43,217 nucleotides of DNA from Planctomycetota bacterium (GTDB lineage: Bacteria; Planctomycetota; Phycisphaerae; Phycisphaerales; SM1A02), in NCBI GenBank assembly GCA_009926625.1, contig RFON01000022.1:1-43217 (forward strand), in the 5' to 3' direction. Position numbers and translations under genes: made by a program. Below the pieces are notes generated by a model. The model ran no database searches. It saw only the letters and a program-made list of their open reading frames with translations, and was not told where the DNA came from. This document shows positions 9,547 through 27,637 of the stretch, in pieces (the stretch's first letter is position 1; each line of letters begins with the position of its first letter).

Positions 9547-9638
9547 CCCGTCGCGTGCTTCACGGGGATCGGCGCAGGTGCGTCGGCATGTATCGTTTCA
9601 GTACTCCTGACCCGCCCCACTGCATTGGAGGATTTCTC

Positions 9639-10205
9639 ATGCGAACATTGATTCCCTGCCTGCTTGCGTGCTGCCTCGTACTTGGCTGTAGCGGTGGAGA
9701 AGAGTCGGAAGAGATGGAAGTCGCCGAGGGCGACACGATGTACACGCCGCCTTCGAAGCCCACGGTCGCGCCGCCAGTCGTGACGGTGGACATGGCACGA
9801 TACGCACGCGACTTCGGGGCATCGTTCCAGACGCAGGCGGATGCCGTGGACAAGATGGCACAGGGCAGCACGCTCTCGATTGCCGACAGCGACGCCTATT
9901 GCAAGGCGCAGGAGCAGATGGCGCGCTTGGCGCTTGAGATGAATGACATCCTTCAGAAGAATCCTCGCTGGCAGCGCGCCATGACCGAAGCGCTCGAGAA
10001 AGAAGGCAAGGCGGGGATCATTGCGATGTATCACGCCGAGAACGCGCTGAAGAAGGCGAAGTCGTCCGGCAAGTCAGGGCGTGCCACGGGCAAGTGTCCC
10101 GATGAAGTGACGAAGCTCGTTGCGGACAACCAACTCATCATCAACCGCATCCGCGGATTGATGCCGTATTCAAAGGATGAGATGGCGCCTCCCAAGGGCA
10201 AGTGA
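9639..10205 (+). CDS. Small predicted lipoprotein of unknown function
   Basis: The 188-residue product starts MRTLIPCLLACCLVLGC, a lipoprotein signal with lipobox V-L-G-C and the lipidated Cys at 17, followed by an acidic linker (GGEESEEMEVAEGD). The rest is mostly helical, with two further cysteines (SDAYCK and GKCPDE) that could pair across the envelope. No known domain is recognised. The ATG at 9639 was chosen over the in-frame upstream extension from 9543 because it has a strong GGAGG 8 bases ahead and puts the lipobox at the usual distance. It follows sucB after 92 bases with no clear terminator between, so some read-through is possible. It converges on ftsI, with 68 bases between the two stop codons and no convincing terminator hairpin. 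Confidence 0.75.
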   Translation: MRTLIPCLLACCLVLGCSGGEESEEMEVAEGDTMYTPPSKPTVAPPVVTVDMARYARDFGASFQTQADAVDKMAQGSTLSIADSDAYCKAQEQMARLALEMNDILQKNPRWQRAMTEALEKEGKAGIIAMYHAENALKKAKSSGKSGRATGKCPDEVTKLVADNQLIINRIRGLMPYSKDEMAPPKGK

Positions 10206-10273: not shown

Positions 10274-12301
10274 TCAGCGCCTCGACGAGGTTCGCTGCGC
10301 ACCCGACGGCTTGCCCGACGGAGACTTCACCGCGGACTTTCCGCCCGTGCGAGTGGGCGTGCGATGCGCGATTACGGCAGGTTCATCGGGGTTTGACTCA
10401 GCAGCAAGATCGCCGTCAGTCGCGACATCCGTGAAAATCAGCGCAGCAGCGACGCGCTCCTTGGCATCGGGAGCGAGGTCCTGCCCCGTGGCGAGGATCG
10501 TTGCGCGCCGCTCGGGCAACTGATCAGGCTTCACGCCGAGATACTGCAAGGATTCATCGACCACATCGCGGACCACGGGTCCCGCAATCGAACCGCCGAA
10601 GTGGCCCTTCCGCTTGTCTGGGTCGTCGATCACGCAGAGCACGACAACCCGCGGGTCCTCGTACGGCGCCGCTGCAATGAAGTTCGCGACATAGCGGTCC
10701 TCGAAGTACCCCTTGCCCTGCCCCGCCGGCTTTGGAAGTTGCGCCGTGCCCGACTTGCCGAACATGCGGTAGAGCGCACTCTGCGCGCGACGTCCAGTGC
10801 CTTCGACGAGCACGCCTTCCATCGCGCTTCGCGACTCGAGCGCGATGTGCGTCGGGAGCGCCTGCGTTCGACTGACGGGTGCCGCGTTCGCGGGTGCTGC
10901 ATCGGGCAGCGCAAGACGCGGCTGCGGCAGGAAACCACCGTTGCAGAACGCGCTGAACGCCCGCACCATCTGCACTGGGGTCACGCCGATCTCATGCCCC
11001 ATCGCGACGGAAGTCTGCGTGTACTTCGACCATGACGATGATGGAGTCACCAGTCCGTCGGTCTCACCAAGCAGCCCCAGCCCACTCGGCTTGCCGAAGC
11101 CGAAGCGTTCGATGACGGCGGAGCGCATCTGGTCAAACGACATCCGCTCACCAGCGATTGCCATTCCGCTGTTGAGGCTCTTCACGAGCACCGTTCGCCA
11201 CGACACCGGTCCGTAGTACTTGACATCGCGGATGGCGCGCCCGAACGATGTGCGGTACGGCCCCGTGGTTGGCGTCGGCAGTTTGCTGTTTGGCGAAAAG
11301 ATCCCGATCTCCGTTGCGGCAGCCCACACGAACGGCTTGAATGTCGAGCCTGGCTCGAACGGATCGCTGAGGCATCGGTTGCGACCGAGCGCTGGATCGA
11401 TGCGGCGCGATGGATCAGTCGTGACCTCGTTCCAGCCCGCGCGAGTCTGCAGGATGTCCGCCATGGCAAGCACATCGCCCGTGTGCGGGTCCATCACGAC
11501 GATGCGGCCGCCACCCGCGTTGTACTCGCGCACCGCCTCAGCCAGACGCCGCTCGGCGATGTCCTGAATCACTATGTCGATCGTCAAACGGATGTCAGTG
11601 CCGTCATCGGCAGGCACGAAGTCCCCATCATCAATGTGAAGCACATTCCTTCGGACATCGCGCAGGAATGTGAGCCGGCCGTTCACCGCAGCCAGGCGCT
11701 TCTCGAACGCCAGTTCCGATCCCGACAGCCCCTTGTGCTCGAAGCCGACCTTCCCGATCAGCGGCGCGGCCACGGAACCTTGCGGGTACTCGCGCACGAG
11801 CTTCGATTCGATGCCGACTCCCTCGATCTTGAGGCTGCGAACGCCGTCGAGTTCCGTATCGCTCAGGCTTGGATCAAGCACTACATAGCGATCGTCAGCC
11901 CGCGCGCGAAAGATTGCTTCGATGTCGGCGGCGGGGCGTCCGAGCACGGTGGACAGCGACATCGCTGCTTCGGTGAAAGGATCTGCGGTCGACACCGCCT
12001 GCGGATCCGTGCGGAGACCTTGCTGCAACTTCTCCTGCCCGACCTTCCAGATCGTCGCGGGATCCGCGAAGAGGCGGTGCCCGACGACGCTCGTCGCAAG
12101 GATGCGCCCGCGTCGATCCATCAGCCTTCCCCGCGCAGCCAATTCGACCGATGTGGAGGTTCGCGACCCCATGGCTGGCGAGAGTCTTTGCGGTGGCAGC
12201 GTCTTGAGTTGCGTGACACGAACGAGCGTCACGGTCATCAGCATGACGACGATGCAGATGACCCAGTGGGTCCACGCGCGAATTCGCTGCGGGTCATTCA
12301 T
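10274..12301 (-). CDS. ftsI: Division-type peptidoglycan transpeptidase (FtsI / class B PBP)
   Basis: This 675-residue class B penicillin-binding protein cross-links septal peptidoglycan. A single N-terminal membrane anchor (residues 10-30, THWVICIVVMLMTVTLVRVT) is followed by the PBP dimer/pedestal domain (RGRLMDRRGRILATS near 58-71) and the transpeptidase domain with all three motifs: S319-T-F-K322 (FEPGSTFKPF), S375-L-N377, and K516-S-G-T519. There are no PASTA repeats. A C-terminal Ser/Arg/Lys-rich tail of about 70 residues (TPTRTGGKSAVKSPSGKPSG) extends past the catalytic domain. The ATG overlaps the stop of the FtsL-like gene (ATGA), and the position after rsmH and an FtsL-like protein matches the classic division cluster, so FtsI fits better than PBP2/MrdA. 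It is the last gene of the long leftward run. Confidence 0.93.
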   Translation of the reverse strand: MNDPQRIRAWTHWVICIVVMLMTVTLVRVTQLKTLPPQRLSPAMGSRTSTSVELAARGRLMDRRGRILATSVVGHRLFADPATIWKVGQEKLQQGLRTDPQAVSTADPFTEAAMSLSTVLGRPAADIEAIFRARADDRYVVLDPSLSDTELDGVRSLKIEGVGIESKLVREYPQGSVAAPLIGKVGFEHKGLSGSELAFEKRLAAVNGRLTFLRDVRRNVLHIDDGDFVPADDGTDIRLTIDIVIQDIAERRLAEAVREYNAGGGRIVVMDPHTGDVLAMADILQTRAGWNEVTTDPSRRIDPALGRNRCLSDPFEPGSTFKPFVWAAATEIGIFSPNSKLPTPTTGPYRTSFGRAIRDVKYYGPVSWRTVLVKSLNSGMAIAGERMSFDQMRSAVIERFGFGKPSGLGLLGETDGLVTPSSSWSKYTQTSVAMGHEIGVTPVQMVRAFSAFCNGGFLPQPRLALPDAAPANAAPVSRTQALPTHIALESRSAMEGVLVEGTGRRAQSALYRMFGKSGTAQLPKPAGQGKGYFEDRYVANFIAAAPYEDPRVVVLCVIDDPDKRKGHFGGSIAGPVVRDVVDESLQYLGVKPDQLPERRATILATGQDLAPDAKERVAAALIFTDVATDGDLAAESNPDEPAVIAHRTPTRTGGKSAVKSPSGKPSGAQRTSSRR

Positions 12302-12606
12302 CCGCCGATTTCCGTGCTCCGCTGCGGCGGATTGCTCGGCGCGGCATCGAGTCGCACCGGTTCAAGCCGATACGGAATCGCGCGCCAACGGCGATCGAGC
12401 CGGTCGACGGCACTCCGAACATCATCGGGACTTGTGCGGCGCGCGATCTCCGTGCGGAGCGACCAGAGCGTCCGCTCTTGCTCGAGCATGCGCCAGTGTG
12501 CGCGCGAGATATCGCGTGCCAACTCGTATCGCTGCTGGCGCTGCGCCAACACGCCGCAGGCGAGCACGCCCACACCAACGATGATTGCGGCGATCTTCGC
12601 GAACAC
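12298..12606 (-). CDS. FtsL-like small bitopic division protein
   Basis: This protein of about 102 residues has one membrane segment at the N-terminus (FAKIAAIIVGVGVLACGVLA), then a charged helical region likely to form a coiled coil (QRQQRYELARDISRAHWRML), and a short proline-rich end. Size, topology and location between rsmH and ftsI are those of FtsL, which pairs with FtsB and activates FtsWI; sequence similarity alone is too weak for certainty. I chose the GTG at 12604-12606, 10 bases after the stop of the LysM gene. A longer in-frame TTG start at 12651 would overlap that gene by 35 bases. Neither start has a good ribosome-binding site. Its stop overlaps the ftsI ATG. Confidence 0.7.
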   Translation of the reverse strand: MFAKIAAIIVGVGVLACGVLAQRQQRYELARDISRAHWRMLEQERTLWSLRTEIARRTSPDDVRSAVDRLDRRWRAIPYRLEPVRLDAAPSNPPQRSTEIGG

Positions 12607-12616
12607 CGCCGAATTC

Positions 12617-13360
12617 TCAGAGATCGCTTGGAACGCGCAGCGACTTTCCAATCCGAAGGTCGCTCGGGTTCTTCATGCGGTCACGGTTCGCTTGATAGAT
12701 GGCTTCCCACTTCTTGGCGGAGCCCAGTTCGCGCGCAGCGATTGCGCCGAGGGTGTCCCCCTTCTGGATGACATACTCGCGCCCCGATGCCGCCGGCGTC
12801 GGTTGCGCCAACTGCGGCATCGATGCTTGCTGCAGCGGCACGGCGACCTGCTGCAGCGACGGCGCAGGCGCTGCCTCGCCGCGCAGCACATGCACAGCCG
12901 GCAAACGCACCGTCATTCCCGCGCGCATCTTCGTTGGGTTGGGAATCGTTGCCTTGTTGAACTCAGCGAGTTCCTTCCACAGGTTGCCGTTGCCGTACTT
13001 CGCCTGGCAGAGCTTGTAGAGCGTCTCCCCCTCGCGCAGCGTGTACAACTCGACGGGCAATCCCACAGGATCTGCGCCCTGCACGGGTGATGGAACGATC
13101 CCCTCTGGCAGCGCAACGGTATCGCCGCCCTGCTGGAATTGCCGCTGCTTCGCAGCAGGCTGCGGCGCGGTCGCGCCAGTCACTTGGATCGGCTGGATGG
13201 AAATTGGTGCAGCCGGTCGCACTTCACGGATCTGGGTGTTCGCCGCAAGATCTGCGGTCGGGCGGCGCTGTCCCGCTGAGAAGTGGTCGGAAATCAGGAT
13301 GCCGACGAACAGCAGCAGCCCGAAGCCGAGGACGATGGCGAGTTTGTGCTCTCGTGTCAT
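12617..13360 (-). CDS. Membrane-anchored protein with two LysM domains, in the division cluster
   Basis: The 247-residue product has a short cytoplasmic start (MTREHK), one transmembrane segment (LAIVLGFGLLLFVGILI), a periplasmic Pro/Gln-rich linker and two LysM domains. The first is around residues 105-160 (LREGETLYKLCQAKYGNGNL, ending RAGMTVRLP). The second is at the C-terminus (IQKGDTLGAIAARELGSAKK, ending IGKSLRVP). LysM binds N-acetylglucosamine in peptidoglycan, so the protein probably tethers the inner membrane to the wall or helps position the septal machinery. No catalytic domain is attached. It starts in an ATGA overlap with the rsmH stop and has an AGGAAG upstream. A LysM gene at this spot is not part of the textbook rsmH-ftsL-ftsI order. 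Confidence 0.88.
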   Translation of the reverse strand: MTREHKLAIVLGFGLLLFVGILISDHFSAGQRRPTADLAANTQIREVRPAAPISIQPIQVTGATAPQPAAKQRQFQQGGDTVALPEGIVPSPVQGADPVGLPVELYTLREGETLYKLCQAKYGNGNLWKELAEFNKATIPNPTKMRAGMTVRLPAVHVLRGEAAPAPSLQQVAVPLQQASMPQLAQPTPAASGREYVIQKGDTLGAIAARELGSAKKWEAIYQANRDRMKNPSDLRIGKSLRVPSDL

Positions 13361-14337
13361 GGGAGGGACTTCCTTGTCCCGAGCGCGATTGCTCGGAGCT
13401 TTGCAGACCTTGCCCGGGGGTTTGCCGCGACTTCAGTGTCGCTGGCAACCTCGGGCCGACGAGTCAACCGGTGAGCCAACGCGGCGTCCACCAGCGCGGC
13501 GAATGAGCGCTTGACTTGGCGGTCCTCCAACGAATGAAAGGAGATGACCGCTACACGAGCCTCGTCCGAGAGCCACCCTGCGCCACGCGCTTCCGCCGCC
13601 GAGGTGATCGACCCCAGCAGTTCCTCCAAGGCTCTCAGCTCGTCGTTGACGGCGATCCGAAGCGCCATGAAGGTTCGTGTGGCAGGGTGCAATCGGGAGA
13701 ACCGTGCGCGCGAGCCGTATGCCTCGCGCACGAGTCGAGCCAAATGCGCCGTCGTCGTAATCGGCTGAGTGATTCGAGATTGTGCAATTTTGCGAGCGAT
13801 TGCGCGAGAAAACGGGTCCTCGCCAAGCGTGGCGATCAGGCTGGCGATATCGGACTCGCTGAGGTCTCGGACGAGATCCGCTGCGGTCACGGGAAGCGAG
13901 CGGTCGAGGCGCATGTCGAGCGGACCATCGTCATGGAACGAGAAACCCCGATCGGGTGTGTCGATCTGATTGCTCGACACGCCGAGGTCGGCAATCAGGA
14001 TGTCCGCACGAACTCCCAGTCGGTCCGCGACAGTCGCAACCGAACGGAAATCTGCATGAACGCCTTCGATGCGCGAGTGCGGCGCGGCAGTGCGGGTGCG
14101 TTCAAGTGCATGCTGGAGGTTTCCAGCATCGCGGTCAAGCAGGATGACGACACCTGGGTCGACTGCGGCTGCCAACGCGCTTGCGTGTCCGCCGCGCCCC
14201 GCCGTTGCATCGATCACGCAACCACCACGCTTCGGAGCCGTCAAGTCGATCACTGAAGCGAGCAAGACGGGCTGGTGCCCATGCGCATGACGACTCGAAT
14301 CCTCGGCTGCCGCATTCCCCGCGCTGTCGTGCGTCAC
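13357..14337 (-). CDS. rsmH: 16S rRNA (cytosine1402-N4)-methyltransferase RsmH (MraW)
   Basis: RsmH methylates N4 of C1402 in the decoding centre of 16S rRNA using S-adenosylmethionine. The 326-residue protein has the N-terminal substrate region (GHQPVLLASVIDL), the SAM-binding loop (VIDATAGRGGHASALAA), ILIADLGVSSNQIDTPDRGF, RAIARKIAQSR, and the C-terminal ISFHSLEDRQVKRSF signature. Length is normal. The GTG start overlaps the stop of the upstream glycosyltransferase gene by 4 bases (GTGA), and its own stop overlaps the LysM gene. rsmH is usually first or second in the division cluster after mraZ; here mraZ is absent and a polysaccharide-priming enzyme takes that place. Confidence 0.95.
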   Translation of the reverse strand: MTHDSAGNAAAEDSSRHAHGHQPVLLASVIDLTAPKRGGCVIDATAGRGGHASALAAAVDPGVVILLDRDAGNLQHALERTRTAAPHSRIEGVHADFRSVATVADRLGVRADILIADLGVSSNQIDTPDRGFSFHDDGPLDMRLDRSLPVTAADLVRDLSESDIASLIATLGEDPFSRAIARKIAQSRITQPITTTAHLARLVREAYGSRARFSRLHPATRTFMALRIAVNDELRALEELLGSITSAAEARGAGWLSDEARVAVISFHSLEDRQVKRSFAALVDAALAHRLTRRPEVASDTEVAANPRARSAKLRAIALGTRKSLP

Positions 14338-15671
14338 ACCAATTGGTCCGACTTGCCCGCATGAATGGGCGTTTCATCGGGCCCCGCTTCTGACCGCTCC
14401 ACTGTTCGACGATCATGCAGCGTCTGCTCGATCCAGCGCTGGATCAGCGCGATCTTCACCGCCACTGCCACGACGATCCCGAAGAACGCAGCGCCGATCG
14501 CATACACCACAAGCACGCGTGTCTCGGTCAGGAGCAATACTGCAGTGAGTGCGACGCCAATCACGGTGAACGACATGGTGATGCCGTACAGCGCACAGAC
14601 AGCCTTCCTGACTGATCCGAAGAAGCGCTTGACCTGATGGTGGATGTGCTGCGCATCGGGTGTGCTCAATGGAACGCCTGCAACCTTGCGGCGGATGATG
14701 GCGAGCGTGGTGTCTGTGATCGGCAGCCCGAAGACGATGAAGCCAGCCACCACGAGACTCGGCGGTCCGTCTTCGCCGAACAGCAGCACGATCGTCACAC
14801 ACAGGTACCCGATCAGCAGGCTCCCGCAATCGCCGAGGAAAATGACCGCTGGATTGAAGTTCCAAGGAAGGAATCCGAGAGTGGTTCCAAGAAGTGCCAG
14901 CGCGAGCGCCACGCGAACTCCAACGAGGCTGGTCGACGGATTTTCGATCATGACCGTGGACGCAACAAGCAGCCCCATGGCCAGGAACCCCATCGACATG
15001 ATCGTCGCGCTCCCCGTCAGGAGACCATCGAGACCGTCAATCAGGTTGGCCGCATTGCATCCTGCGATGATGACGAAGGCGAGGAATCCAGTGCCGATCC
15101 AGTAGTACAGCGTTCCCGCTTGAACAGCAACGCCTCCGAGGGTGAACAGCACCTCGTCCGGCATGCCGAGGAACGGGGAGAGAATTCCCGTGACAGCTCC
15201 GATGCCGATGCTGGACGAGGCCAGTGCAGCTGCGGCAACGAGTTGTCCCGCGATCTTCAGCCGCGCATCCCACTTCCAGATGTCGTCGGCAAGCCCAGTG
15301 AGGGCGATGGCGACAGCCCCGACGAGAATCGACAGCGGCACGGGGGCCAATTCCTCGGCAGAACCATCAACCGCGACGAGCGCAGCGAACATCGCCGCCA
15401 CGAATCCGATGAACACGGCAAGTCCCCCGAGGTACGCAACGGGAGTCGAATGCACTTTGCGCTTTCCGTCCGGCTTGTCGATGACACCGAACTCGAAGGC
15501 AATCCACCGAACGAGCGGCGTGGCCACGAGGGTGACAAGGAAGCCCGCGATGAAGACGGGCGCGAACGAATTCAGGATCTCGACCGCATCCACGAGCACC
15601 TCGTGGACCTCAGGACGATCCAGGAGCCCCCCCGACGGCAACGGCCACGCTGGGGTGACTTCCGTGATCAC
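14334..15671 (-). CDS. WecA/TagO-type undecaprenyl-phosphate sugar-1-phosphate transferase
   Basis: The 445-residue integral membrane enzyme belongs to the MraY/WecA family, which moves a UDP-linked HexNAc-1-phosphate onto undecaprenyl phosphate to start glycan synthesis. Family signatures are visible: GLADDIWKWDARLK (first Asp pair), NAANLIDGLDGL, FLGDCGSLLIG and the C-terminal TPDAQHIHHQVKRFFGS. The HxHH end and NxxNxxDGLDGL form fit WecA/TagO/WbpL enzymes rather than MraY. About ten membrane spans can be traced. It starts with GTG two bases after the stop of the chain-length gene and ends inside the rsmH start, so translation is probably coupled on both sides. Its role is most likely priming of the exopolysaccharide made by this cluster. 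The sugar it uses cannot be read from the sequence. Confidence 0.88.
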   Translation of the reverse strand: MITEVTPAWPLPSGGLLDRPEVHEVLVDAVEILNSFAPVFIAGFLVTLVATPLVRWIAFEFGVIDKPDGKRKVHSTPVAYLGGLAVFIGFVAAMFAALVAVDGSAEELAPVPLSILVGAVAIALTGLADDIWKWDARLKIAGQLVAAAALASSSIGIGAVTGILSPFLGMPDEVLFTLGGVAVQAGTLYYWIGTGFLAFVIIAGCNAANLIDGLDGLLTGSATIMSMGFLAMGLLVASTVMIENPSTSLVGVRVALALALLGTTLGFLPWNFNPAVIFLGDCGSLLIGYLCVTIVLLFGEDGPPSLVVAGFIVFGLPITDTTLAIIRRKVAGVPLSTPDAQHIHHQVKRFFGSVRKAVCALYGITMSFTVIGVALTAVLLLTETRVLVVYAIGAAFFGIVVAVAVKIALIQRWIEQTLHDRRTVERSEAGPDETPIHAGKSDQLV

Positions 15672-15673
15672 TG

Positions 15674-17920
15674 TCAGGTCGCTCCGCTGGCCGGCGTTGG
15701 AATCGTCGCTTCGGTCGGGGTCTCTGCCGCGTATCTCGAGGCCATCTCCGCGTTCTTGCGGTAGTAGCCGCCAGCAGTCTGCTCTGGTCGGTTCAGGACG
15801 GCTCCGATGAACCGCCCGCGCTGGGCGGTCAGTTGTCCAATGAGTCGACCGATGAGTCCGCGCTGATCACGCATGGCCCGAACGACGAGCATGGACCCAT
15901 CGACGCGGTTGGCAACAGCCATCGACTCTGCCGCAAGTGCCATCGGCGCAGTGTCGATCAGCACGAGGTCGTACTGCTCACGCATCGCGCCCATCACTTC
16001 GGTCATCCGCAGCGTGTCGAGCAGTTCGATCATGTGGCTTCGACCTGCGCCCACAACATCGGCTCCGATGGCGGCACGCTGCACGACATCCGCAAGCGTG
16101 TTGGTGCCGGCAAGCACATCACCGAGACCAAGCCCTCCCTCTGGAAGTCCGAAGGCTGTGCACAGCCCTGGACGCCTGAAGTTCGCATCCACCACGAGCA
16201 CACGCTTGCCGATGACGAGCGCGCTCGACGCCAGATTGGTGATGATGGCGGTTGCGCCGGCGCCAGGCAATGCCGAAAAGATGCCGACAACCGAGCCGCC
16301 TTGATCGGCGAGGTTCTTGATGAGATTGGTCGAGACTTGCCGCAAGGACTCGGCGAGCGCCGACTGCGGCGACTCACGAACCACGAACGACACCCTCGCC
16401 GGCGCGGTGGGATCATCCCTCCGATCGGGGATGACTCCGAGCACGCGGCCACTCGCCAACGCCGCCAACTCGCTCGCGAATCGGACTCGCTGGTCCATGA
16501 ACTCCTTGAGGAAGATCAGTCCAACGCCGACCAGGATCACCAGCACCCAAACGCCAGGAAGTACGACCTTCCAATTCGGGAAGAACAGTTCGCGAGGCGT
16601 CAGCGCACGCTGCGCCACTTCGACGGGAACCGAATCCTCGCGCGAGCGTGCAAGGTCGAGTTCGCCGACCGTCTTGGCAACGACACCGCGCTCCTCCTCG
16701 AGGCGCTTCTGGCGCTCCTTCATCGCCTCCAGTTCCGCAACGCGCGAAGCCAATTCCTCAATCCGCTTTCGTTCGAGTTCGAAGTCGCCCGTCTGCTTCT
16801 TCAGCAGATCTTCAAGCCCACCCTGACGATCAGTCACGCTCTTGAACTGACCGTTCAAGTCACGCTGGACGATCTCGTCGAGTGCCTTGTCCTTCTGGGC
16901 CCGCGCCGAAGCGAGCGTCTCCTCTGCATACCGCACCTCTGGATGCTGCGGGCCGAAGCGCGCATTCTTGCTCTGGAGCTGGATCGTCAGGTCATTGAGA
17001 TCGCGGTTGAGCTGCATGAGCGCAGGATCCATCTCCGCCTTCTGGATGTCGTCCTTCGATGGCTCGAGCCGCCCCTGCAACTTGGAATCCAGTTGCCCAC
17101 GCTGCGACTTCACCAGACTCAGGTCCATCGTCGTCTCAGCGATCAACTTCTGCAGTTCCTCGAGCCCACGCTGCGACTGCTGCGCGTTCTCCTCGAATGC
17201 AGGAATCCCCTCTTCCGTGATGAAACGGCGAATCGCCGCCTTCATGCTGTCGATCTGCTGGTCCAATTCGTTCTGCTTCTTCACGAAGACCTGCTTGATG
17301 CCGTTGAACTTGCGGTCGCTCTCGGCGTTCAGCATGTCGAGATAGGTGGTCGTGATCGCGTTCAGCACGACCGGCACATCGCCGGCGACATGTGCCTTCC
17401 AATACAGTGCGAAGAATTGGGTACCGCGGCGATGTCCAGACGAGATCTCGTCCTCAAGGTCATCGACAGCCTCGTCCACCACGAACTGCCCGTTGTCATC
17501 GAGGTAGTACTCGTGCCAGGATGTCTTCAACACATCCTTGCTGGAAATCGCCTTCACGAGCACATCGCGCATGACCATCTGTTGCGCTTCCGTCTGTGCA
17601 AGTCGAGCGACGGTTTCCTCCTGCGTCGCGTTCTCGCCAAAGATCTCCGTTGCCTCGCCCAGTTGGGGACGCAGGCGAAGGATCACCTGACCGCTGTAGA
17701 GCGGGTAGAGATACTCCGCGCCGAATTGGAACACGACGGCGAACACGGCTCCGCCGATGGTCCACCAGATGATCTTCTTCCAGTTCTGCTGCAGGACGCG
17801 GACGGGATCGATCGTCGCTCCCCGCGTAACGGTTGGCTGCGAACGGGGTGCGCCCGAAGCCCGTTGCGGGGCGCTGGCTGAAGGGGTGTTTGAGGGCGAA
17901 CCTGATGTTGGCGAAACCAC
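15674..17920 (-). CDS. Wzz/Wzc-like polysaccharide chain-length protein with degenerate P-loop kinase domain
   Basis: The 748-residue protein has the co-polymerase architecture of Wzc/GumC/ExoP. A Ser/Pro-rich cytoplasmic start precedes TM1 (about 50-72), a long periplasmic coiled-coil region (about 200-430, many Glu/Gln/Lys heptads) and TM2 (about 453-471), followed by a cytoplasmic CpsD/ParA-like domain. In that domain the Walker A region reads SALPGAGATA (549-558): the invariant Lys is Ala556. Walker A' reads VLVVDANFRRP, with Asn580 where Asp is usual. Walker B (LVLIDTAPMAL, Asp656) is kept. Tyrosines are few at the C-terminus (GGYYRK, SRYAAE) compared with the Tyr cluster of active BY-kinases. 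I infer a structural or ATP-sensing role without normal kinase activity. GTG start with AAAGGAAG about 8 bases upstream. It follows the giant TPR gene by 19 bases. Confidence 0.9.
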   Translation of the reverse strand: MVSPTSGSPSNTPSASAPQRASGAPRSQPTVTRGATIDPVRVLQQNWKKIIWWTIGGAVFAVVFQFGAEYLYPLYSGQVILRLRPQLGEATEIFGENATQEETVARLAQTEAQQMVMRDVLVKAISSKDVLKTSWHEYYLDDNGQFVVDEAVDDLEDEISSGHRRGTQFFALYWKAHVAGDVPVVLNAITTTYLDMLNAESDRKFNGIKQVFVKKQNELDQQIDSMKAAIRRFITEEGIPAFEENAQQSQRGLEELQKLIAETTMDLSLVKSQRGQLDSKLQGRLEPSKDDIQKAEMDPALMQLNRDLNDLTIQLQSKNARFGPQHPEVRYAEETLASARAQKDKALDEIVQRDLNGQFKSVTDRQGGLEDLLKKQTGDFELERKRIEELASRVAELEAMKERQKRLEEERGVVAKTVGELDLARSREDSVPVEVAQRALTPRELFFPNWKVVLPGVWVLVILVGVGLIFLKEFMDQRVRFASELAALASGRVLGVIPDRRDDPTAPARVSFVVRESPQSALAESLRQVSTNLIKNLADQGGSVVGIFSALPGAGATAIITNLASSALVIGKRVLVVDANFRRPGLCTAFGLPEGGLGLGDVLAGTNTLADVVQRAAIGADVVGAGRSHMIELLDTLRMTEVMGAMREQYDLVLIDTAPMALAAESMAVANRVDGSMLVVRAMRDQRGLIGRLIGQLTAQRGRFIGAVLNRPEQTAGGYYRKNAEMASRYAAETPTEATIPTPASGAT

Positions 17921-17939
17921 GTGGCGCTTCCTTTCTTGG

Positions 17940-20900
17940 TCAGCCGCCGGTGCTGCCGTTCAGCTCCCGCTCGACCGCATCGATTTCCCGCTGCGCATCT
18001 GCATCTGGCCGAAGCGCCTTGGCGCGCGTCAGCGACGCGATCGCATCGTCTCGGAATCCGCCCTTGAGCTGCGCCATCGCGAGGTGGGCGTAGGTGGTGG
18101 CGCTCGCCTGCACGCGCGACGCGCGGCGGAGCAACCCGATCGCCTCTGGGTACTCACCCTTCTTGGTGAGCGCAAACCCGAGCGTGTCCATGAGATCCGC
18201 ATTGACGGGGTTCAGGGCCAGCGCGCGGCGGGCGCGTTCAATCGCCTGCGGAACCTTGTCGAGTGCGGCGGCTTCGAGATACGCCACATTGTTGAGCAGC
18301 AACAGGTCATCAGGCTGCAGCGCCAACGCCTTCTCGTAGTGCTCAGCCGCCTTCGCCATGTTGCGGCGCTGGTACTCGATGTTCCCGAGCATTCGGTACG
18401 CAGCGAATCGTTCCTGGTCGTTCGTGGCAGCCGCGAGTGCGCGCGTCGCGAAGTCGAGGGCTTTCTCATACCACTGCGGTCCCGTCTCGCCGAAACGCGC
18501 AGCGACCCCAACCAGGAGTGGCGATGACGGGTTGGCACCGGCACACTCCACCACGAACTTGTCGAAGTCCGCCATCTTGTCGCCGGGATAGAGCGTGCTG
18601 GCAGCAAGCACCCATTGGTCGCCGCTGACTCCCTTGGATGGATCGATGGCGCGCACGAGTTCTCGCAGTTGCTGTCGCCCCTGCTGCCGCGCAATCTCCG
18701 TATCTCCCGTCGCAGCGAGCGACGCAGCCGCCATCATCTGAAGGAACGGGACCTGCGGCACCACGCTTGGCACCGCTTGAAGCGCCCGCAGCACGCCCGC
18801 TAGGTCAGGTGGGGAACTCGTTGCGCGAAGGACAATGGCCTGAATCAGGTAATCAGGGTTCTGCGTAATGCTGAACAATGTCTGGTTGCTCGTAGCGGCA
18901 TCGAGGTTCTTTCCGGCTGCCCGTTGCGCCTCGCTGAGTGCCTGAAGCCATGTCTGATTCCGCGGCTCGTCCGCAACGGCCGCCTGGGCGGTTGCGATCG
19001 CGCCGCCAAAATCGCCCGCGCCAAGTTGGTAAGCGATGAGAGCCCGACGGGCCTCGACCGTTCTGGGATTCTGCTCCACAAACTTCCTGCACACATCGAT
19101 GGCAGCAGCCATGTCGTTGCGGTCCGTCTGGATGGACGCGAGCAGGCGCGTGGCGGGCCAGTAGCTGCCTTGCAACTCGATCGCCCGCTCCACATTCTGA
19201 AGCGCCTGCCGCGCCATGTCGGGGTTGCCGCTCTTCTGATAGCGCCGCTGGAATGAAGCGGCGCGCACGATGAAAGGGAGCGGACTCGCAGGGTCCATCT
19301 TGATGGCCTCATCGAGCGACCGATTCAGTTCACCGAGCACACGGGCCTCATCAGCGGGCGACCCGCTGAACTCGGGCTGATCCATCTCGGCGTTGGCAAT
19401 GTCTGCCGCCAACAGCCGATCGTTGAATGTGACCTTCTGGCCCGCCTGCTTCGCAACTTCGGCACTCATCTCCTTCGCACCCTTGAAGTCGCGAACTTCC
19501 AGTCGAAGCGCAGTGATGTTGCGCGCAAGATCCAACGAAGGGCTCTTCGCGTAAGCCGCTTCCAGCACATCGAGCGCCTCACGAGGGACCCGACGGTTGG
19601 ACCACACCTGAGATACGGCACGCGCGGCATCGCTGGTGGTACTGGTGTCGAGGGCGATCGCCTTCGCGAATGCCTCCTGCGCCGGCTGCGACAATCCCAT
19701 TTCCAGGTTCAGTTCACCCAGGTCCACCCAAGCCGCCCACTGCATCGGACCCGTGAGCTTCTCGGCGGCTGAGCGCAGCATTTCGCTCCCCTCCCGCCCA
19801 CGACCCGCGCGCTGGAGTGCTGCGGCATAAATCCGAACCGAAGCATTGTCACTCGTATTAGCTCGCAAGAGGGACTCAAGGATTTTCTGTGCGCGCTCCG
19901 CGTTCGCCTTCGTGTATTCCGCGATGATCGCATCTTGCCGCTCCTTGCCGAGGGAATCCCACTCCTTCGGCGGATAGACGGGCTCCGAGTTGTCATTGAG
20001 GACGAGTTCGCGCGTCACGGGCGTCTCGACGAGAAGGCGCATCAACTGCCGCGCGTTGTCGACATCGGATGGTCGGACCGAGTACAAGCGAGTTCGCTCC
20101 ACGATGCTGCCAGCGCGATTGCCGTACACCGCCTCCAGATCGAGGTATGCGTTTCGGACTTCAGGGTTCCCAGGGAGTGCCAGCATGGCACTACGCAGCA
20201 CTTCGCGCGCCTTCGTGGTCTGACCAGACTTCGCCAGCAGCATCGAATACAACTGAATGGTCATCGGGTCGTCTGGTGCACGATCAAACGATGTTGCGAG
20301 GGCCTCGCGAGCACCTTCCATGTCGCCGCTGCGCTCGCGCGCCATTCCAAGCAGTCGGTACGCCGCCGCTGATGCTCCAGGCACAGCCACTGCCTGCTCG
20401 AACGCCTGAATTGCCTGGGGAAACTCTGCCTTGGCCAAGTTCATACGCCCGCGCATCAGGAACGGAATGGCCTTGTCCTGCGAGTGCTGCTCCGCCAGCG
20501 CAATGAGTTCCCGCAACCGCGCGTCGTTTTCCGCTTGAAGCGCATCGCTGAAGAGCCGATCGAGCAGCGTGGTGTCCCCGGGGGCGAGTTCGAGGGCGCG
20601 CGGCACGGCCTTGTCGGCGGCAGCCTTCGCCTCATCCAGTTGCGCCTGCACAGTTGCGCGAGCCGCATCCGCCACGGACTTCAGGCGAATCGCGAGCGAG
20701 TCGCGAAGCATCAGCATGGTTGTCGCAACCAACACCGCTCGTTCGCTGTCACTTCGCTTGCTGCCATCGGGCAGGGTCTGGTCTGCATAGGCCTGCACGC
20801 GCTCGACAGGCGACTTGATTTCAGCCAGGATCTTCAGGGACTGAAGAGGACCATCGTTCGGTGACTCCGACAGATAGACCGCAAGCGACGCCTTTGCTTC

Positions 20901-22793
20901 ATCCTGCTTGCCCATGAAGAGCAGCCACTGCACGAGCGTCCGCTTCAGGCGAATGTCGTTGGGGACTCGCACGAGGGCATCGCGAAGCACGGTGAGCGCA
21001 CCTTCCAAGTTGCCCTCGTTCGCCAACTGCTCTGCGTTGCCGAGCGCCTTCAATCCATCGTCCGTGGTGCTGACCATGCCGTCGCCGCGGACCTTCCCCA
21101 GTTCCGCAACGATTTGCTGCGCGACTGCATTGTTGGGCTCCGCGGTCAGCACCATCTGAGCACTCCGCTTCGCTTCCGCGAGCCGTCCGAGCCGCGCCTC
21201 GAGGCCAGCGCGAATGAGGTAGAACTGGGTGAGCCCGGGATACTCGTCGATCCCTTGGTTGATCTTGATCAGCGCAGCTCCCTGCTCGCCGCGTTGCCCG
21301 AGCGCCGATGCTGCGAGCAGATAGAACTCCGGGGGAACGCGCTTCTGGCGCGCAAAGAGATCCTCCAGTCTCGTGATTGCCGTGAGATAGTCTCCTTCAG
21401 CAAACGCAATCTTCGCGTCACATCGGAGGGTCGCGAGATCGCCATCGCGGGTTCCCACCACCTTGACGAGCCTTTCGCGCAGCGCCTTCAGCGCAGCGAT
21501 CTGCGACTTGCGGAGCTGGGCGTCCTTCCCTTCATCCATTCGCGCGTAGGTGATTGCGAAGATCTCCTCGAGTGATCCCGCACGCACCTCATCCGCGTAG
21601 GCGGCCAGCATCGACACCTTTGGCGGCGGCATCGACACGATCGTCTCGTAGGTCGCCATGGCTTTGTCGAACTCGCCGGTCAATCGCTGCAGCCGTGCGA
21701 GCGCGTTCAACTCGAGGATCGGCGTTCCAGACTTCTCGATCGCTGCTGCGAGCAGGGAGATCGCCCGCTTGATTGCATCCGCATCCTCGAGCGAACCCAC
21801 GACCCCGGACAGTTCGACCAACTGGCGGGCATCAAGCTCCGTTGCCTTGCCCGCCTGATCCGACGATCGATCGCCGCCGGCCCAAAGCAGCGGGTCGAGA
21901 ACGCTCCGAATGGCTTGTGGGGTGGCAAGCGGATTGTTTGCCTTCCGCAGCGCGGAGAGATGCATCAGTTCCACGATGGCGATCTGCGAACTCCCGGGGT
22001 TGGCTGCCTTTGCCTCGGCAAGGAGCCTCGCGAAATCCTCTTCGCGAGTCTTGGCGAGCGCCACTTGGCTCGACGCGTTGAGGCGAAGCACATCGTTTCC
22101 AACCGCCACGAGCAGGGAGCTCCACAGCTCTGGATCCTTTGGGTTGCCCTTCAATACCTCTTGCGCGTCGCCTTCGACCTCGGTGCGGTCCTCTGCGGTC
22201 AGCAGCTCCTCACGGTTCAGTTGCGCAGCGAGCCCGATCGAGCGAAGCTTGGCGTACAGCGGATCCGACTCCGGCACGCGATCAATCGCCTCTTCGGCGG
22301 TGGATGCCACCGCCTGCCACATCTCCAACTGCCCAAAGGTGCGCGCGCGCTCCATTTGCGAATCGAGCAGCGCCAGCCATTGATTGCCATCGCGCGGCGC
22401 GGAGCGGGTTCGGCGCTGCAGCAGCGCTTCGCGGCGACCGTACAACTCCTGTGCGTCGGTCGCGGTCTTGGGCGTCATCAAGCTCAGCGCATCGAGCATC
22501 TTCCCGCTGAAAGCCAAGTTGTTCGGCTGCTTGCTGACAGCTCGCCCATAGCGGGCGACCGCCTCCTGATACTTCTTGTACGCCTCATCAAGTTCCCCCG
22601 CCTTTTCGAGCGCCTGTGCCTGCGCAACCAGTTCATCGCCGCGCTGCAGGTTCTTCTCAGGGGCCGCGAAGTTCGTGTACCACCACAAGCCCGCAAGCAC
22701 AACGCCAACGAAAAGCAGGAAGCCTCCGATGAGGAAGATGAACTTCTTGTTGAGGCGGGACTGCCCACCTGACTTGTTGAAGGTGTTCGCCAT
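17940..22793 (-). CDS. Very large membrane-anchored TPR protein of the exopolysaccharide/exosortase cluster
   Basis: The 1617-residue protein has a short basic cytoplasmic start, one transmembrane segment (residues 18-40, FIFLIGGFLLFVGVVLAGLW) and then more than 1500 residues of helical repeats, very many of them TPR-like (for example AYRLLGMARERSGDMEGARE, AAEHYEKALALQPDD and TLGFALTKKGEYPEAIGLLR). The repeats face the periplasm. Giant TPR proteins such as PrsT/EpsD-like proteins are found beside exosortase genes and are thought to organise polysaccharide secretion; that is the best analogy here. No enzyme domain is seen. The ATG lies 3 bases after the stop of the DUF3485 gene, so the two are surely co-transcribed. 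Two or three repeats near the C-terminus are the closest to the TPR consensus; the middle is diverged. Confidence 0.85.
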   Translation of the reverse strand: MANTFNKSGGQSRLNKKFIFLIGGFLLFVGVVLAGLWWYTNFAAPEKNLQRGDELVAQAQALEKAGELDEAYKKYQEAVARYGRAVSKQPNNLAFSGKMLDALSLMTPKTATDAQELYGRREALLQRRTRSAPRDGNQWLALLDSQMERARTFGQLEMWQAVASTAEEAIDRVPESDPLYAKLRSIGLAAQLNREELLTAEDRTEVEGDAQEVLKGNPKDPELWSSLLVAVGNDVLRLNASSQVALAKTREEDFARLLAEAKAANPGSSQIAIVELMHLSALRKANNPLATPQAIRSVLDPLLWAGGDRSSDQAGKATELDARQLVELSGVVGSLEDADAIKRAISLLAAAIEKSGTPILELNALARLQRLTGEFDKAMATYETIVSMPPPKVSMLAAYADEVRAGSLEEIFAITYARMDEGKDAQLRKSQIAALKALRERLVKVVGTRDGDLATLRCDAKIAFAEGDYLTAITRLEDLFARQKRVPPEFYLLAASALGQRGEQGAALIKINQGIDEYPGLTQFYLIRAGLEARLGRLAEAKRSAQMVLTAEPNNAVAQQIVAELGKVRGDGMVSTTDDGLKALGNAEQLANEGNLEGALTVLRDALVRVPNDIRLKRTLVQWLLFMGKQDEAKASLAVYLSESPNDGPLQSLKILAEIKSPVERVQAYADQTLPDGSKRSDSERAVLVATTMLMLRDSLAIRLKSVADAARATVQAQLDEAKAAADKAVPRALELAPGDTTLLDRLFSDALQAENDARLRELIALAEQHSQDKAIPFLMRGRMNLAKAEFPQAIQAFEQAVAVPGASAAAYRLLGMARERSGDMEGAREALATSFDRAPDDPMTIQLYSMLLAKSGQTTKAREVLRSAMLALPGNPEVRNAYLDLEAVYGNRAGSIVERTRLYSVRPSDVDNARQLMRLLVETPVTRELVLNDNSEPVYPPKEWDSLGKERQDAIIAEYTKANAERAQKILESLLRANTSDNASVRIYAAALQRAGRGREGSEMLRSAAEKLTGPMQWAAWVDLGELNLEMGLSQPAQEAFAKAIALDTSTTSDAARAVSQVWSNRRVPREALDVLEAAYAKSPSLDLARNITALRLEVRDFKGAKEMSAEVAKQAGQKVTFNDRLLAADIANAEMDQPEFSGSPADEARVLGELNRSLDEAIKMDPASPLPFIVRAASFQRRYQKSGNPDMARQALQNVERAIELQGSYWPATRLLASIQTDRNDMAAAIDVCRKFVEQNPRTVEARRALIAYQLGAGDFGGAIATAQAAVADEPRNQTWLQALSEAQRAAGKNLDAATSNQTLFSITQNPDYLIQAIVLRATSSPPDLAGVLRALQAVPSVVPQVPFLQMMAAASLAATGDTEIARQQGRQQLRELVRAIDPSKGVSGDQWVLAASTLYPGDKMADFDKFVVECAGANPSSPLLVGVAARFGETGPQWYEKALDFATRALAAATNDQERFAAYRMLGNIEYQRRNMAKAAEHYEKALALQPDDLLLLNNVAYLEAAALDKVPQAIERARRALALNPVNADLMDTLGFALTKKGEYPEAIGLLRRASRVQASATTYAHLAMAQLKGGFRDDAIASLTRAKALRPDADAQREIDAVERELNGSTGG

Positions 22794-22796
22794 GTC

Positions 22797-23639
22797 TCAG
22801 GACTCCTTGGATTCCAGTCGTTCAACCTCGGGCCAGTCCGGCAGGCACTTCATCACCGCTGGGAGAACCTGCCCGAGCAATTCAGCTGTCGCAGCCGACC
22901 AACGCTCTTCGGCGTTCTCGGCATCGTTGACAACCATCGAGAACTGAATCTTACAGTAATACGCGTGGCGGTTCGCGAGGTCGAACGCGTAGGTGCGCAC
23001 GACATACGGCGATGAAGTCATGCGTCCATTGGCGACGAAGAGATACCCGCCAACGAAACGCACACCTGCCTTTGCCTCTTCCTGGAAGACCGTCACGGAA
23101 AACTCCGTCTCTCCAAGCGGCATGTGAACGGTGCTCTCCACGCGAGTGACGGGATCGAGAACGCGCGCGATGGGATAGCGCTCGCCCGATGCGAGATGAA
23201 TGGGCCCAGACTGCAAGTCCCACGCCGTGCGGTCGATGGGGACCGCAACCTCATGCGGCTGCTTCACCATGAGCATGCCCGCTGCGCCCCAGCAGCGCTC
23301 AGGCACATGGGGCACTGCATCGACCATCCCCGTGTAGTACGCGATGTGCAGCAGGAGAACGCCCTTCGATGGATCGCCGTCAAGCGCGTAGTGCCGATCG
23401 AGGTACTGATTCGTGCCGAGACTCTCAACCATGGCGTCACCCATGCGCCCATCCTGTCCAACGCGCCGCCAGCGGCCAAGCTTGGCCGGGATCGTGTCGA
23501 ACGACTCTCGGAGCGACACGGGTTCCTTGCGGAGGTACACATTCAGCGCTGCAACGCTTGCACGGAACGCAACGGACGACAGCACGAGCACCCCAAGCAG
23601 CGCGGCGAATGCCCATCGGATGGATCTGCTAAACAGCAT
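22797..23639 (-). CDS. Exosortase-associated EpsI/DUF3485-family protein
   Basis: The 280-residue product has an N-terminal membrane anchor or uncleaved signal (residues 9-30) and an extracytoplasmic domain of the EpsI/DUF3485 type: a W-containing start (PAKLGRWRRVG), a YYTGMVDAVPHVPERCW motif with His111 and Cys116, and a late SPYVVRTYAFDLA region. In many bacteria this domain is fused to the C-terminus of the exosortase or encoded next to it; its biochemical role is not settled. Here it is a separate gene whose ATG overlaps the end of the exosortase gene by 11 bases, so the two are likely made together. The His-x-Pro-x-x-Cys motif is intact. Confidence 0.85.
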   Translation of the reverse strand: MLFSRSIRWAFAALLGVLVLSSVAFRASVAALNVYLRKEPVSLRESFDTIPAKLGRWRRVGQDGRMGDAMVESLGTNQYLDRHYALDGDPSKGVLLLHIAYYTGMVDAVPHVPERCWGAAGMLMVKQPHEVAVPIDRTAWDLQSGPIHLASGERYPIARVLDPVTRVESTVHMPLGETEFSVTVFQEEAKAGVRFVGGYLFVANGRMTSSPYVVRTYAFDLANRHAYYCKIQFSMVVNDAENAEERWSAATAELLGQVLPAVMKCLPDWPEVERLESKES

Positions 23640-24582
23640 GCGCCACCTTGGGTCCTTCGTCGACCATCAAGCGCTGAATGAGCCACAGGGCGCCCATGTA
23701 AAGGAACAATCCTGGAATCAGCCACAGCACACCGATGAACTCGTGCACCTCGCCATCGATGAAGTTTCGGTTGAACTGCGAAAGCACGCCGAGCGATGCA
23801 ACGCGGACAATGTTGACCGCCAGTGCGATCGGAAGCGCAGCGGACACGAGCAGCGCACGCTGCCAAAAGCGCGTCAGACTGGTGGCCGCAAGAAAGACGC
23901 CAAGCGCGGCGAACGCCACCAGCATGCGCATGCCTGAACATGCCTCGGCAACATTCAGGGGGAACGACTCACCGCCCGACCACACCACGAGTGTGTTGCC
24001 GCTGCGATCCACTTCCATGCCGATGATCGTCAGCAGGAAGTAGGCGCCAACCGCGGCGATGTCTTGCAACTGGAAGGTGATCTTGTTGAGCATCACCTCG
24101 GACAGCGTTTGCCCGAACACCCACAGGAATCCAAGCGGAAACCAGAACCACCGCAGTGCCTTCGTTCCAAAGAGCACCCATGCGATCCCGATCAGCGTCA
24201 GCAGGATGCCGACCGACATGATGTTGTGATGGAAAAGCGGCTTGGGACCGAACACGCAGAGCAGGTACCAGCCCACACCGAGCATGATCGGCAGCAGACC
24301 CAACCAACACGGGGCGAACGGTTGCAGCGCGGCGAGTTCCTTGCGTCGCAGCCAGATGAAGTAGCCGGTGATCGCAGGGATCAGCAGCGTGTGCGCCCAG
24401 TCGCTCGGTTGCGTGATTGCGAACATCACCTGTCGGCGGAAGAACTCGAAGAAAACCACCGCAAGGAGCGCGGCAAGCAGGCCCCCAAGCGCAATCGCCG
24501 CGGGAAGCTGCACGCGAACCTCTGTGCCCCGCAAGGGGTTCGGGAACGGCGAATCGGTGGATGTTTCAGGCACTGCGGTCAT
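23629..24582 (-). CDS. Exosortase (membrane cysteine transpeptidase family)
   Basis: This 317-residue polytopic protein has about eight membrane helices and the exosortase catalytic residues in order: Cys215 in AEACSGMRML, Arg260 in LPIALAVNIVRV and His280 in EVHEFIGVLWLIPGL. Exosortases cleave PEP-CTERM-like tails of exported proteins and are typically linked to extracellular polysaccharide loci. None of the exported proteins in this window ends in a recognisable PEP-CTERM tail (PEP motif, helix, basic end), so the substrates must lie elsewhere or carry a different signal. The subfamily cannot be assigned confidently. A 116-base spacer separates the ATG from the upstream export gene, enough for an internal promoter, though none is clear. 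Confidence 0.9.
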   Translation of the reverse strand: MTAVPETSTDSPFPNPLRGTEVRVQLPAAIALGGLLAALLAVVFFEFFRRQVMFAITQPSDWAHTLLIPAITGYFIWLRRKELAALQPFAPCWLGLLPIMLGVGWYLLCVFGPKPLFHHNIMSVGILLTLIGIAWVLFGTKALRWFWFPLGFLWVFGQTLSEVMLNKITFQLQDIAAVGAYFLLTIIGMEVDRSGNTLVVWSGGESFPLNVAEACSGMRMLVAFAALGVFLAATSLTRFWQRALLVSAALPIALAVNIVRVASLGVLSQFNRNFIDGEVHEFIGVLWLIPGLFLYMGALWLIQRLMVDEGPKVAHAV

Positions 24583-24698
24583 TGTGTCATACCCATCCCG
24601 ATGGAACCTTGTTCGGCGAAAACCGCTCCACTCTCCAATCAGTTTCCCAGCATGAGCACTCCCGTTCGCGACAACCCGCTCGAATCAGCAGGCCTGAA

Positions 24699-26519
24699 TC
24701 AGTTGCCCGTGATATTGACCGGCGGCGGACCGAACACATCGTTTCCGAAGTTCCTGTCGAGCAGGAATCCGAATCCATAGGTGATCCGCAGCCCGTTGCG
24801 GAACACAGCCAAGGGGGTTGCCCAGAAGTTCGTTCCAATAATCACATGATCGTCCTTCTTCAGGATGATGTCTGGTTCTGCCATGTTTCTGATGGCCGCG
24901 AGATTCACTCGGATCGCGGCTTCGCGTCCACCTGGCAGGCGGCGCACAAGATCCACGCGCTCTGGAATCGCGATCTCGGTCAATCCTCCCGCTGCTGCCA
25001 CGAGGCGACTGAGCGTGAGTCGTCCGTAGTTGGGCAACTGGAACACGCCTGGACGCTGGATCTTGCCATCGATGTAGACAACGCCGATCGGCGGGAAGGT
25101 CAGGTAGATGTCATCGCCTGGACGGACCACCACATTCTGCGAAGGATCGCCGCGCACGAGGCGGTCGTAATCCACTTCGATGATGCGAGCCTTGAAGAGT
25201 GACCGCGGATCCTTGTCCTGCGAGGCATCGATTGAAACGTCCGACGCTGGCGTGACAGCCGTCGCTGGGACAGCGGATTCCGCCGAACTCTTCGCAGCGG
25301 TCGTGTCCGCTTCCTGCTTCGCGGCGTTCGTTCCACGAATGCGAACCCACTGCTGGCTGTTCACATCGAAGATGAACGAGTCCGCGTCGTTCGCGAGTTG
25401 CGCGGCGGGCTTGCGCTGCGTCGCGTTCGATGCATTCACGCCGGGTCGCTCCGCGACCGTGACGGGCTCGAGCGTGTCAACATCGACAGGAGGCGGCGAC
25501 TGTGCACTCCCGACGGCACCAGGGCTCGCGCTCTTTCCGGCTTCCGTCTTGGGCGCGGCTGGAGCGGGCGCCGGCGCCGCTGGTGGTGCGGCTTGCGGTG
25601 CAGCCGGCGCTGCTGGCGGATTCGACGGAGCTGCCCCCGCGTCTGTCGGCTTGCCATTGCCGTCCGACTCGCTCAGCTGATTGATGAGTGCCTCGATATC
25701 CACTGGATTTGCCTGTGTTGCCGCGGGCTTTGTCGCTGGCTGGACGGGCGGCGCGATGGGCGCGGTCTGCTGCGCCGCAGGCTGCGTGGGCTGAGCATCG
25801 TCTCCCCCGCCACCACTGAGCACGCCAGCGGATTCGCGCTCGGTGGCGTTTTCGACCGCCATCGACCGCACAACGAGCACCCGCTCGCAAATCACGTCAG
25901 CGCCGCCCGCGAGCGCGATCGCCTGCGTGAGTTTGAAGTTCGGCTTGGTCAGCGCGAACACGCCACTGTTCTGCACGGCTCCCTGGATGGCGTAGTCAAA
26001 GCTCCGACCCTCCTGAATATCCACCGTCACAACGGGATTCTTGATGAACGGTTCGAGTTTCTTGCGGATCTCCTCGCGGAGTTCATCGAGCGTCAGTCCA
26101 GACGCCTGAATCTCGTTGATCGTTGGCAAGCGGATGAAGCCTCCCGCATCCACCACTCGAACGGCTGCTTCCGTCTTTCCCTGCGTGATCAGTTCGTAGA
26201 TTTCGACCTGAACCACATCGCCCGCTGCCAGACGGTATTGAAGCGTGTTGGCAATCAAGTCCTGCGGCTCAGGCGGTCCTGTGACACCCAGCGGCTCCTC
26301 GGGCGGCTCGATGACGTCGATACGCTCCAGCACCGGAATTGTCGTTGGCGTCGTCTCGTAATACCCCGTGACGCTCGGATCCATATAGGAGTCCGTCTCG
26401 CATCCCGGGAATCCGCCGAGCGTCAGCGCGAAGAGGGCGACCCAAAGTCCCACCCGCAGCCATCGGCACGCGAGCCGCCCCGTGGCGGATCCACCAAGAG
26501 GTTGGCTAGTGAGCAGCAT
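24699..26519 (-). CDS. Wza-type polysaccharide export lipoprotein with an unusual Ala/Pro-rich insertion
   Basis: The 606-residue product begins with a hydrophobic signal ending LTLGGFPGC (candidate lipidated Cys40; the lipobox is non-canonical). A poly-export domain spans about 85-180 (RLAAGDVVQVEIYE and EEIRKKLEPFIKNPVVTVDI), followed by a first SLBB-like segment (AIQGAVQNSGVFAL). A second SLBB lies near 465-560 (VYIDGKIQRPGVFQLPNYGR). This is the outer-membrane channel architecture of Wza/GumB, through which polysaccharide leaves the cell. Between the two SLBB parts sits roughly 200 residues of low-complexity Ala, Pro, Gln and Thr sequence (about 225-430), absent from ordinary Wza proteins. 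It is the first gene of the leftward run and is probably preceded by the main promoter. Confidence 0.88.
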   Translation of the reverse strand: MLLTSQPLGGSATGRLACRWLRVGLWVALFALTLGGFPGCETDSYMDPSVTGYYETTPTTIPVLERIDVIEPPEEPLGVTGPPEPQDLIANTLQYRLAAGDVVQVEIYELITQGKTEAAVRVVDAGGFIRLPTINEIQASGLTLDELREEIRKKLEPFIKNPVVTVDIQEGRSFDYAIQGAVQNSGVFALTKPNFKLTQAIALAGGADVICERVLVVRSMAVENATERESAGVLSGGGGDDAQPTQPAAQQTAPIAPPVQPATKPAATQANPVDIEALINQLSESDGNGKPTDAGAAPSNPPAAPAAPQAAPPAAPAPAPAAPKTEAGKSASPGAVGSAQSPPPVDVDTLEPVTVAERPGVNASNATQRKPAAQLANDADSFIFDVNSQQWVRIRGTNAAKQEADTTAAKSSAESAVPATAVTPASDVSIDASQDKDPRSLFKARIIEVDYDRLVRGDPSQNVVVRPGDDIYLTFPPIGVVYIDGKIQRPGVFQLPNYGRLTLSRLVAAAGGLTEIAIPERVDLVRRLPGGREAAIRVNLAAIRNMAEPDIILKKDDHVIIGTNFWATPLAVFRNGLRITYGFGFLLDRNFGNDVFGPPPVNITGN

Positions 26520-27577: not shown

Positions 27578-27637
27578 GCTGCGCCGCGCACGCGTGCGAC
27601 CGCAAGGGTAACGCATGCCAGCCGCGTCGGCACGCGA

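Follow-up and report, generated by a model that had tools for sequence, protein, structure and literature searches.

What does it mean when genes for polysaccharide export run straight into genes for cell division? The question is raised by a window of 43,217 nucleotides from a Planctomycetota bacterium of the order Phycisphaerales (assembly GCA_009926625.1, contig RFON01000022.1, positions 1 to 43,217), in which ten genes follow one another from a wza-type exporter to ftsI and a WecA/TagO-type transferase gene, here called wecA, overlaps rsmH. In the original prediction, made from the sequence of the window, this was read as a possible coupling of surface-polymer assembly to septal wall synthesis. 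We find that the division cassette rsmH-lysM-ftsL-ftsI faces in opposite directions in two related sets of genomes between the same outer flanks, and that the fused arrangement is real and has long been kept in its planctomycete group. The explanation that we prefer, with a probability of about 0.65, is a rewired operon in which the cassette would be expressed by read-through and translational coupling.

Results

The division cassette changes direction between conserved flanks

We compared the genome of the window with 60 relatives; rsmH was found in 58 of these 61 genomes, and the surroundings of all 57 rsmH genes outside the window were fetched. wecA runs directly into rsmH at 23 of the 58 loci, i.e., in all 18 genomes of the window's genus that have rsmH and in 5 of 17 from other genera of the family. 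Other families are represented by 23 genomes, and the fusion was found in none of them; three of these show less than 500 bp upstream. The polymer module is visible back to wza in 16 of the 23 fused genomes; in the other seven the contig ends first. Scanning named contigs for the WecA protein, we obtained 34 loci, 18 of them repeating sampled genomes. Among the 16 further loci, rsmH follows wecA in 14, and two end inside wecA, one of these sharing its assembly with one of the 14. All 34 are metagenome-assembled genomes (MAGs), labeled Phycisphaerales, Planctomycetia, Planctomycetaceae, Singulisphaera or uncultured bacterium, and several are lake-derived, judging by their names. Since they were found by peptide patterns of the window's own WecA, they are biased to close kin. 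The adjacency hence extends beyond a single assembly. No title on this fusion was found in the literature surveyed, whose coverage leaves out most subscription journals.

The order rsmH-lysM-ftsL-ftsI is the usual cassette across the sampled order, whether the polymer module adjoins it or not. All 58 loci have a LysM-type frame behind rsmH, and an ftsI-type gene was seen at 53, the contigs of the other five ending first. The short run ending at ftsI, which had also been pointed out at first, is therefore nothing particular to the fusion. The same holds for mraZ: it is absent from the run, as had been noted, but its absence is not special to the fusion and was rejected as a mark of it, since mraZ is unlinked to rsmH in all 54 genomes that have both (on another contig in 47, at least 144 kb away in 7). 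In a phylum-wide view of the 30 best-scoring loci from 119 genomes, which is not a random draw, a LysM-type frame followed rsmH in only two, one of them in the same class. Perhaps the LysM gene was added to the division cassette of these FtsZ-less bacteria at the level of the class.

What differs is the upstream partner. In 9 of the 12 non-fused genomes of the family, a co-oriented sucB lies upstream of rsmH, at a distance of up to 372 bp in six and of 1.2 to 3.1 kb in three; sucA was seen in eight of the nine. In the remaining three, the flank examined (a short one in two of them) contains no sucB. Outside the family, neither sucA nor sucB gave a match near rsmH, and the upstream neighbors are other frames.

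The polymer module likewise occurs on its own. We inspected 20 polymer blocks from non-fused genomes, picked where an exosortase match, mostly together with a transferase match, lay. The order of wza, exosortase, TPR and Wzc-like genes is kept in all 20, and wecA follows in 17; of the other three, two are truncated where the stretch ends, and that of G031 has no wecA there. Seven blocks come from other families, covering four of the five families sampled. Outside the fused group, module and cassette hence form two independent units.

The flanks tie the arrangements together. Among the fused genomes, 17 have enough flank to show what lies behind ftsI, and all 17 have a convergent sucB there, no more than about 4.5 kb away; some carry extra genes in between, one of them a transporter in G033. 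In three genomes from three genera (G020, G024 and G031), the polymer module stands tail-to-tail behind ftsI; the stop codons of wecA and ftsI are at a distance of 1 bp in G020 and of 12 bp in G024. pyrB lies beside wza in all 16 fused genomes that show wza and in all three tail-to-tail genomes. As pyrB and sucB-sucA keep their places, solely the four-gene cassette differs in direction, and we infer that it was probably inverted in situ and thereby moved from behind sucB to behind the polymer module. Five other members of the family have the module at a different place, where no pyrB was found ahead of it.

The wecA-rsmH junction is the most uniform of the run

The two overlaps described at first, GTGA between wecA and rsmH and ATGA between rsmH and the LysM gene, are present in the sequence, and the GTG at 14337 is the sole candidate rsmH start before the methyltransferase match. 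The intergenic distances in the window are 116 (wza-xrt), −11 (xrt-epsI), 3 (epsI-tpr), 19 (tpr-wzc), 2 (wzc-wecA), −4 (wecA-rsmH), −4 (rsmH-lysM), 10 (lysM-ftsL) and −4 bp (ftsL-ftsI). From the exosortase gene through ftsI all genes are co-directional and no gap exceeds 19 bp, i.e., they have the spacing of a single operon. Co-transcription across the wecA-rsmH junction, as originally proposed, is likely from this spacing. A strong promoter and terminator at 14334, with no spanning transcripts, had been named as what would speak against it. A consensus scan found no promoter- or terminator-like site there, but its totals were not above those of shuffled sequence (3 vs 2.5 and 8 vs 12.4), hence the scan decides nothing.

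Across the fused genomes, no junction of the run is as tight and uniform as wecA-rsmH: all 23 have an overlap of the wecA stop with the rsmH start, of 4 bp in 19 and of 1 bp in 4. With one start rule for all junctions (the start nearest the upstream stop), the other nine junctions of the same genomes show such overlaps in 31 of 164 cases, namely 17 of 20 at ftsL-ftsI, 5 of 23 at rsmH-lysM and few at the remaining ones; because the fused genomes are related, these counts are no independent sample. Strict invariance is contradicted by the 14 further fused loci, of which eight permit a 4- or 1-bp overlap and four have gaps of 2 to 26 bp; in the other two (L123 and L131) the domain match starts before the nearest start, so that the overlap is not readable.

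Could the overlap stem from genome compaction alone, with the cassette promoter inside wecA and the adjacency of no meaning for expression? The genome of the window has 2.58 Mb, and in the parts of PMC6461901 available to us a lake Phycisphaerae lineage is described with a mean genome size of 2.6 Mb and a mean intergenic spacer of 43.5 nt. That text names the MAG of one fused relative (L125/G034), whose membership in the lineage is implied, not stated. In our data, however, other junctions of the run drift (rsmH-lysM from −11 to 119 bp) and wecA-rsmH stays steady, and no promoter-like site was seen near the junction, although in a scan that is uninformative. We therefore regard compaction alone as rather unlikely, and the compact genomes of this lineage, as far as PMC6461901 describes them, as a partial explanation of the strict overlap.

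Alternatively, the fusion may have been kept because polymer initiation and export share undecaprenyl phosphate or the division plane with septal peptidoglycan synthesis. The uniformity of the junction would agree with this, as would the persistence of the fusion throughout the genus and in five further genera. Moreover, no FtsZ or tubulin was found in any of the 61 genomes (controls positive in 13 of 14), so division in this group is unusual. However, the sister genera carry the cassette behind sucB, at a junction as tight as the fused one in three of nine cases (−4, −1 and +1 bp), and have the polymer module elsewhere or tail-to-tail; the fusion was seen in no sampled genome of another family; and the unrelated neighbors pyrB, sucA and sucB have been kept equally long. 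Furthermore, the gene at the junction, rsmH, encodes a 16S rRNA methyltransferase and not an enzyme of the wall. This weakens the proposed functional tie, which is possible but unsupported; as the reason for the fusion, we consider it quite improbable. A narrower form, in which selection on the RTGA overlap would hold the WecA-type step and the septal cassette in fixed proportion for one shared division-plane assembly of FtsZ-less planctomycetes, is to be given slightly poorer odds still.

Evidence for and against a single inversion

A tree of the polymer genes (41 rows, quick method, without G003 and G007) joins the fused rows in one clade with a Shimodaira-Hasegawa-like approximate likelihood ratio (SH-aLRT) support of 99. 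Several observations weigh against the rewiring account or its single inversion. The tree of the cassette genes (57 rows, without G028) splits the fused rows in two places and groups the fused G034 with the tail-to-tail G024 and G031 on long branches, and the approximately unbiased (AU) test on these genes gave p = 0.025 against one fused clade. The combined-gene tree (39 rows, simpler model) supports the fused clade at just 76. Neither state was seen in the outgroup, hence the direction of change is drawn from the sister group. Also, plain read-through leaves unexplained why the wecA-rsmH overlap is stricter than the cassette's own rsmH-lysM junction. Given the conflict between the trees, one inversion, two, or one plus a reversal all stand; a single inversion is the simpler account. 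In the window we found no inverted repeats joining both cassette ends, just short imperfect pairs, which is a weak test as the event is old.

Gene content of the run and its surroundings

The ten genes, their order and families were confirmed (Table 1). All lie on the minus strand, which had not been stated before, hence the run reads from 26519 to 10274 in the order wza, exosortase, EpsI-like, PrsT-like TPR, Wzc-like, WecA-like, rsmH, LysM, ftsL-like and ftsI. Since pyrB, nuoH and carB lie upstream on the same strand, the 122-bp gap between pyrB and wza is the sole natural left border. The genes past ftsI, a small gene followed by sucB, sucA, priA and carA, are on the opposite strand. The ftsL-like frame has no Pfam match over cut-off and owes its name to position, size and a single N-terminal membrane segment.

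Table 1 Features of the window, with the evidence for each assignment
Feature	Position	Strand	Evidence or remark
wza-type polysaccharide export protein, 606 aa	24699..26519	-	Poly_export and SLBB domains over Pfam cut-offs
exosortase (xrt), 317 aa	23629..24582	-	PF09721 5e-47; TIGR02602 over cut-off
EpsI-like protein (DUF3485), 280 aa	22797..23639	-	PF11984 over cut-off
large TPR protein, PrsT-like, 1617 aa	17940..22793	-	TPR families over cut-offs; TIGR02917 4e-48, below its cut-off
Wzc-like chain-length determinant / tyrosine autokinase, 748 aa	15674..17920	-	eps_transp_fam and XrtA-associated kinase models, E 1e-26 to 1e-25, below cut-offs
WecA/TagO-type polyprenyl-phosphate sugar-1-phosphate transferase, 445 aa	14334..15671	-	PF00953 over cut-off
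GTGA overlap, wecA stop / rsmH start	14334..14337	-	read in sequence
rsmH (mraW), 326 aa	13357..14337	-	TIGR00006 and PF01795 over cut-offs
LysM protein, N-terminal membrane segment, 247 aa	12617..13360	-	PF01476 over cut-off
ftsL-like small membrane protein, 102 aa, GTG start	12298..12606	-	position, size, membrane segment
ftsI-type penicillin-binding protein, 675 aa	10274..12301	-	Transpeptidase and PBP_dimer over cut-offs; FtsI/SpoVD models below cut-offs
pyrB	26642..27616	-	outer flank, kept in both arrangements
sucA (2-oxoglutarate dehydrogenase E1)	5332..8286	+	other flank
sucB (E2)	8302..9546	+	other flank; precedes the cassette in sister genera
small gene between ftsI and sucB	9543..10205	+	family not recognized; in this genus, weakly in G023
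serine/threonine protein kinase with TPR region	35948..38854	-
giant protein	38880..42860	-	RCC1 repeats, FG-GAP, dockerin-type domain

If the transferase were MraY, the run would be a plain wall-synthesis cluster. Both enzymes belong to one superfamily and the gene adjoins rsmH, yet TIGR02380 (4e-23) beats the mraY model TIGR00445 (1e-16) on it, both below cut-off, and its orthologue stays with the exosortase module in genomes whose rsmH lies at another place. The genome has a separate MraY, split over two contigs: the N-terminal part follows murE-murF at the end of C3, and C56 begins with the C-terminal part, which scores over cut-off. The window transferase carries HIHH where this MraY has HHHF, presumably a mark that tells the two enzymes apart. 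We rejected the MraY identity, which is extremely improbable if this separate MraY is functional. A second WecA-like transferase lies beside an NAD-dependent epimerase on contig C16 (L095 339-2865, minus strand).

murE, murF and mraY are hence elsewhere and not behind ftsI, murD lies on contig C15, and mraZ, found in 57 of the 61 genomes, is on another contig in this one. The run shares rsmH, ftsL (by position alone) and ftsI in their usual order with the division and cell wall (dcw) cluster. Unlike in that cluster, mraZ is not directly upstream of rsmH, murE-murF-mraY are elsewhere, a LysM gene stands between rsmH and ftsL, and the cassette lies behind a polymer module. In the passages of PMC12283558 available to us, Phycisphaerae retain most dcw genes save ftsZ, ftsB and ftsA (with few ftsA exceptions), and dcw divergence is likely tied to cluster fragmentation; the missing FtsZ and scattered wall genes found here fit this account. 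Loss of ftsZ is shared with the fragmented Planctomycetota dcw genes in the passages seen of PMC12283558, PMC5147048 and PMC10632474, where most other dcw genes are kept in Phycisphaerae and the ftsI and mraW genes of Planctopirus are reported as not essential; those passages describe neither this cassette nor the LysM gene in it, nor a polymer module ahead of it.

The polymer module resembles XrtA/PEP-CTERM exosortase clusters in combining an exosortase with EpsI-like, Wza-type, Wzc-like and PrsT-like TPR proteins. It differs from them in that several of its proteins score below curated cut-offs and no glycosyltransferase, flippase or polymerase was recognized in the run. Also, the genome gave a single PEP-CTERM match (6e-4, contig C26 6750-6815), in a search that a divergent signal would escape; the exosortase may have few targets or a divergent sorting signal. 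In 8 of the 20 polymer blocks (L141, L142, L143, L145, L149, L151, L155 and L159) we found a far longer exosortase frame, of about 1.8-2.2 kb, and no EpsI-like gene apart from it, which suggests an exosortase-EpsI fusion. Several relatives have a frame of about 1 kb between wzc and wecA, a place without room for it in this genus.

Discussion

The adjacency of the genes alone does not show that polymer export and division work together, because relatives carry the same cassette behind an energy-metabolism operon. We favor operon rewiring. The cassette often has no room for a promoter in both arrangements, and read-through from the upstream gene is therefore the natural reading. In the fused genomes, where the cassette has no promoter-sized gap of its own, its transcripts would come from the polymer module by read-through or start at a promoter within wecA, and translation of rsmH may occur by termination-reinitiation at the RTGA overlap. 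As the upstream partner is exchangeable (2-oxoglutarate dehydrogenase genes, the polymer module, other frames), selection would probably have acted on steady expression of a housekeeping cassette, and not on a dedicated partnership of polymer export and the septal wall.

Gene neighborhood is often taken as a sign of function; here the history of the partnership is visible. Through an apparently clean four-gene inversion, a division cassette that had 2-oxoglutarate dehydrogenase genes upstream came to follow a polymer-export module. The new junction became a fixed stop/start overlap, and the locus thus offers a natural test of what operon partnership means in bacteria that divide without FtsZ.

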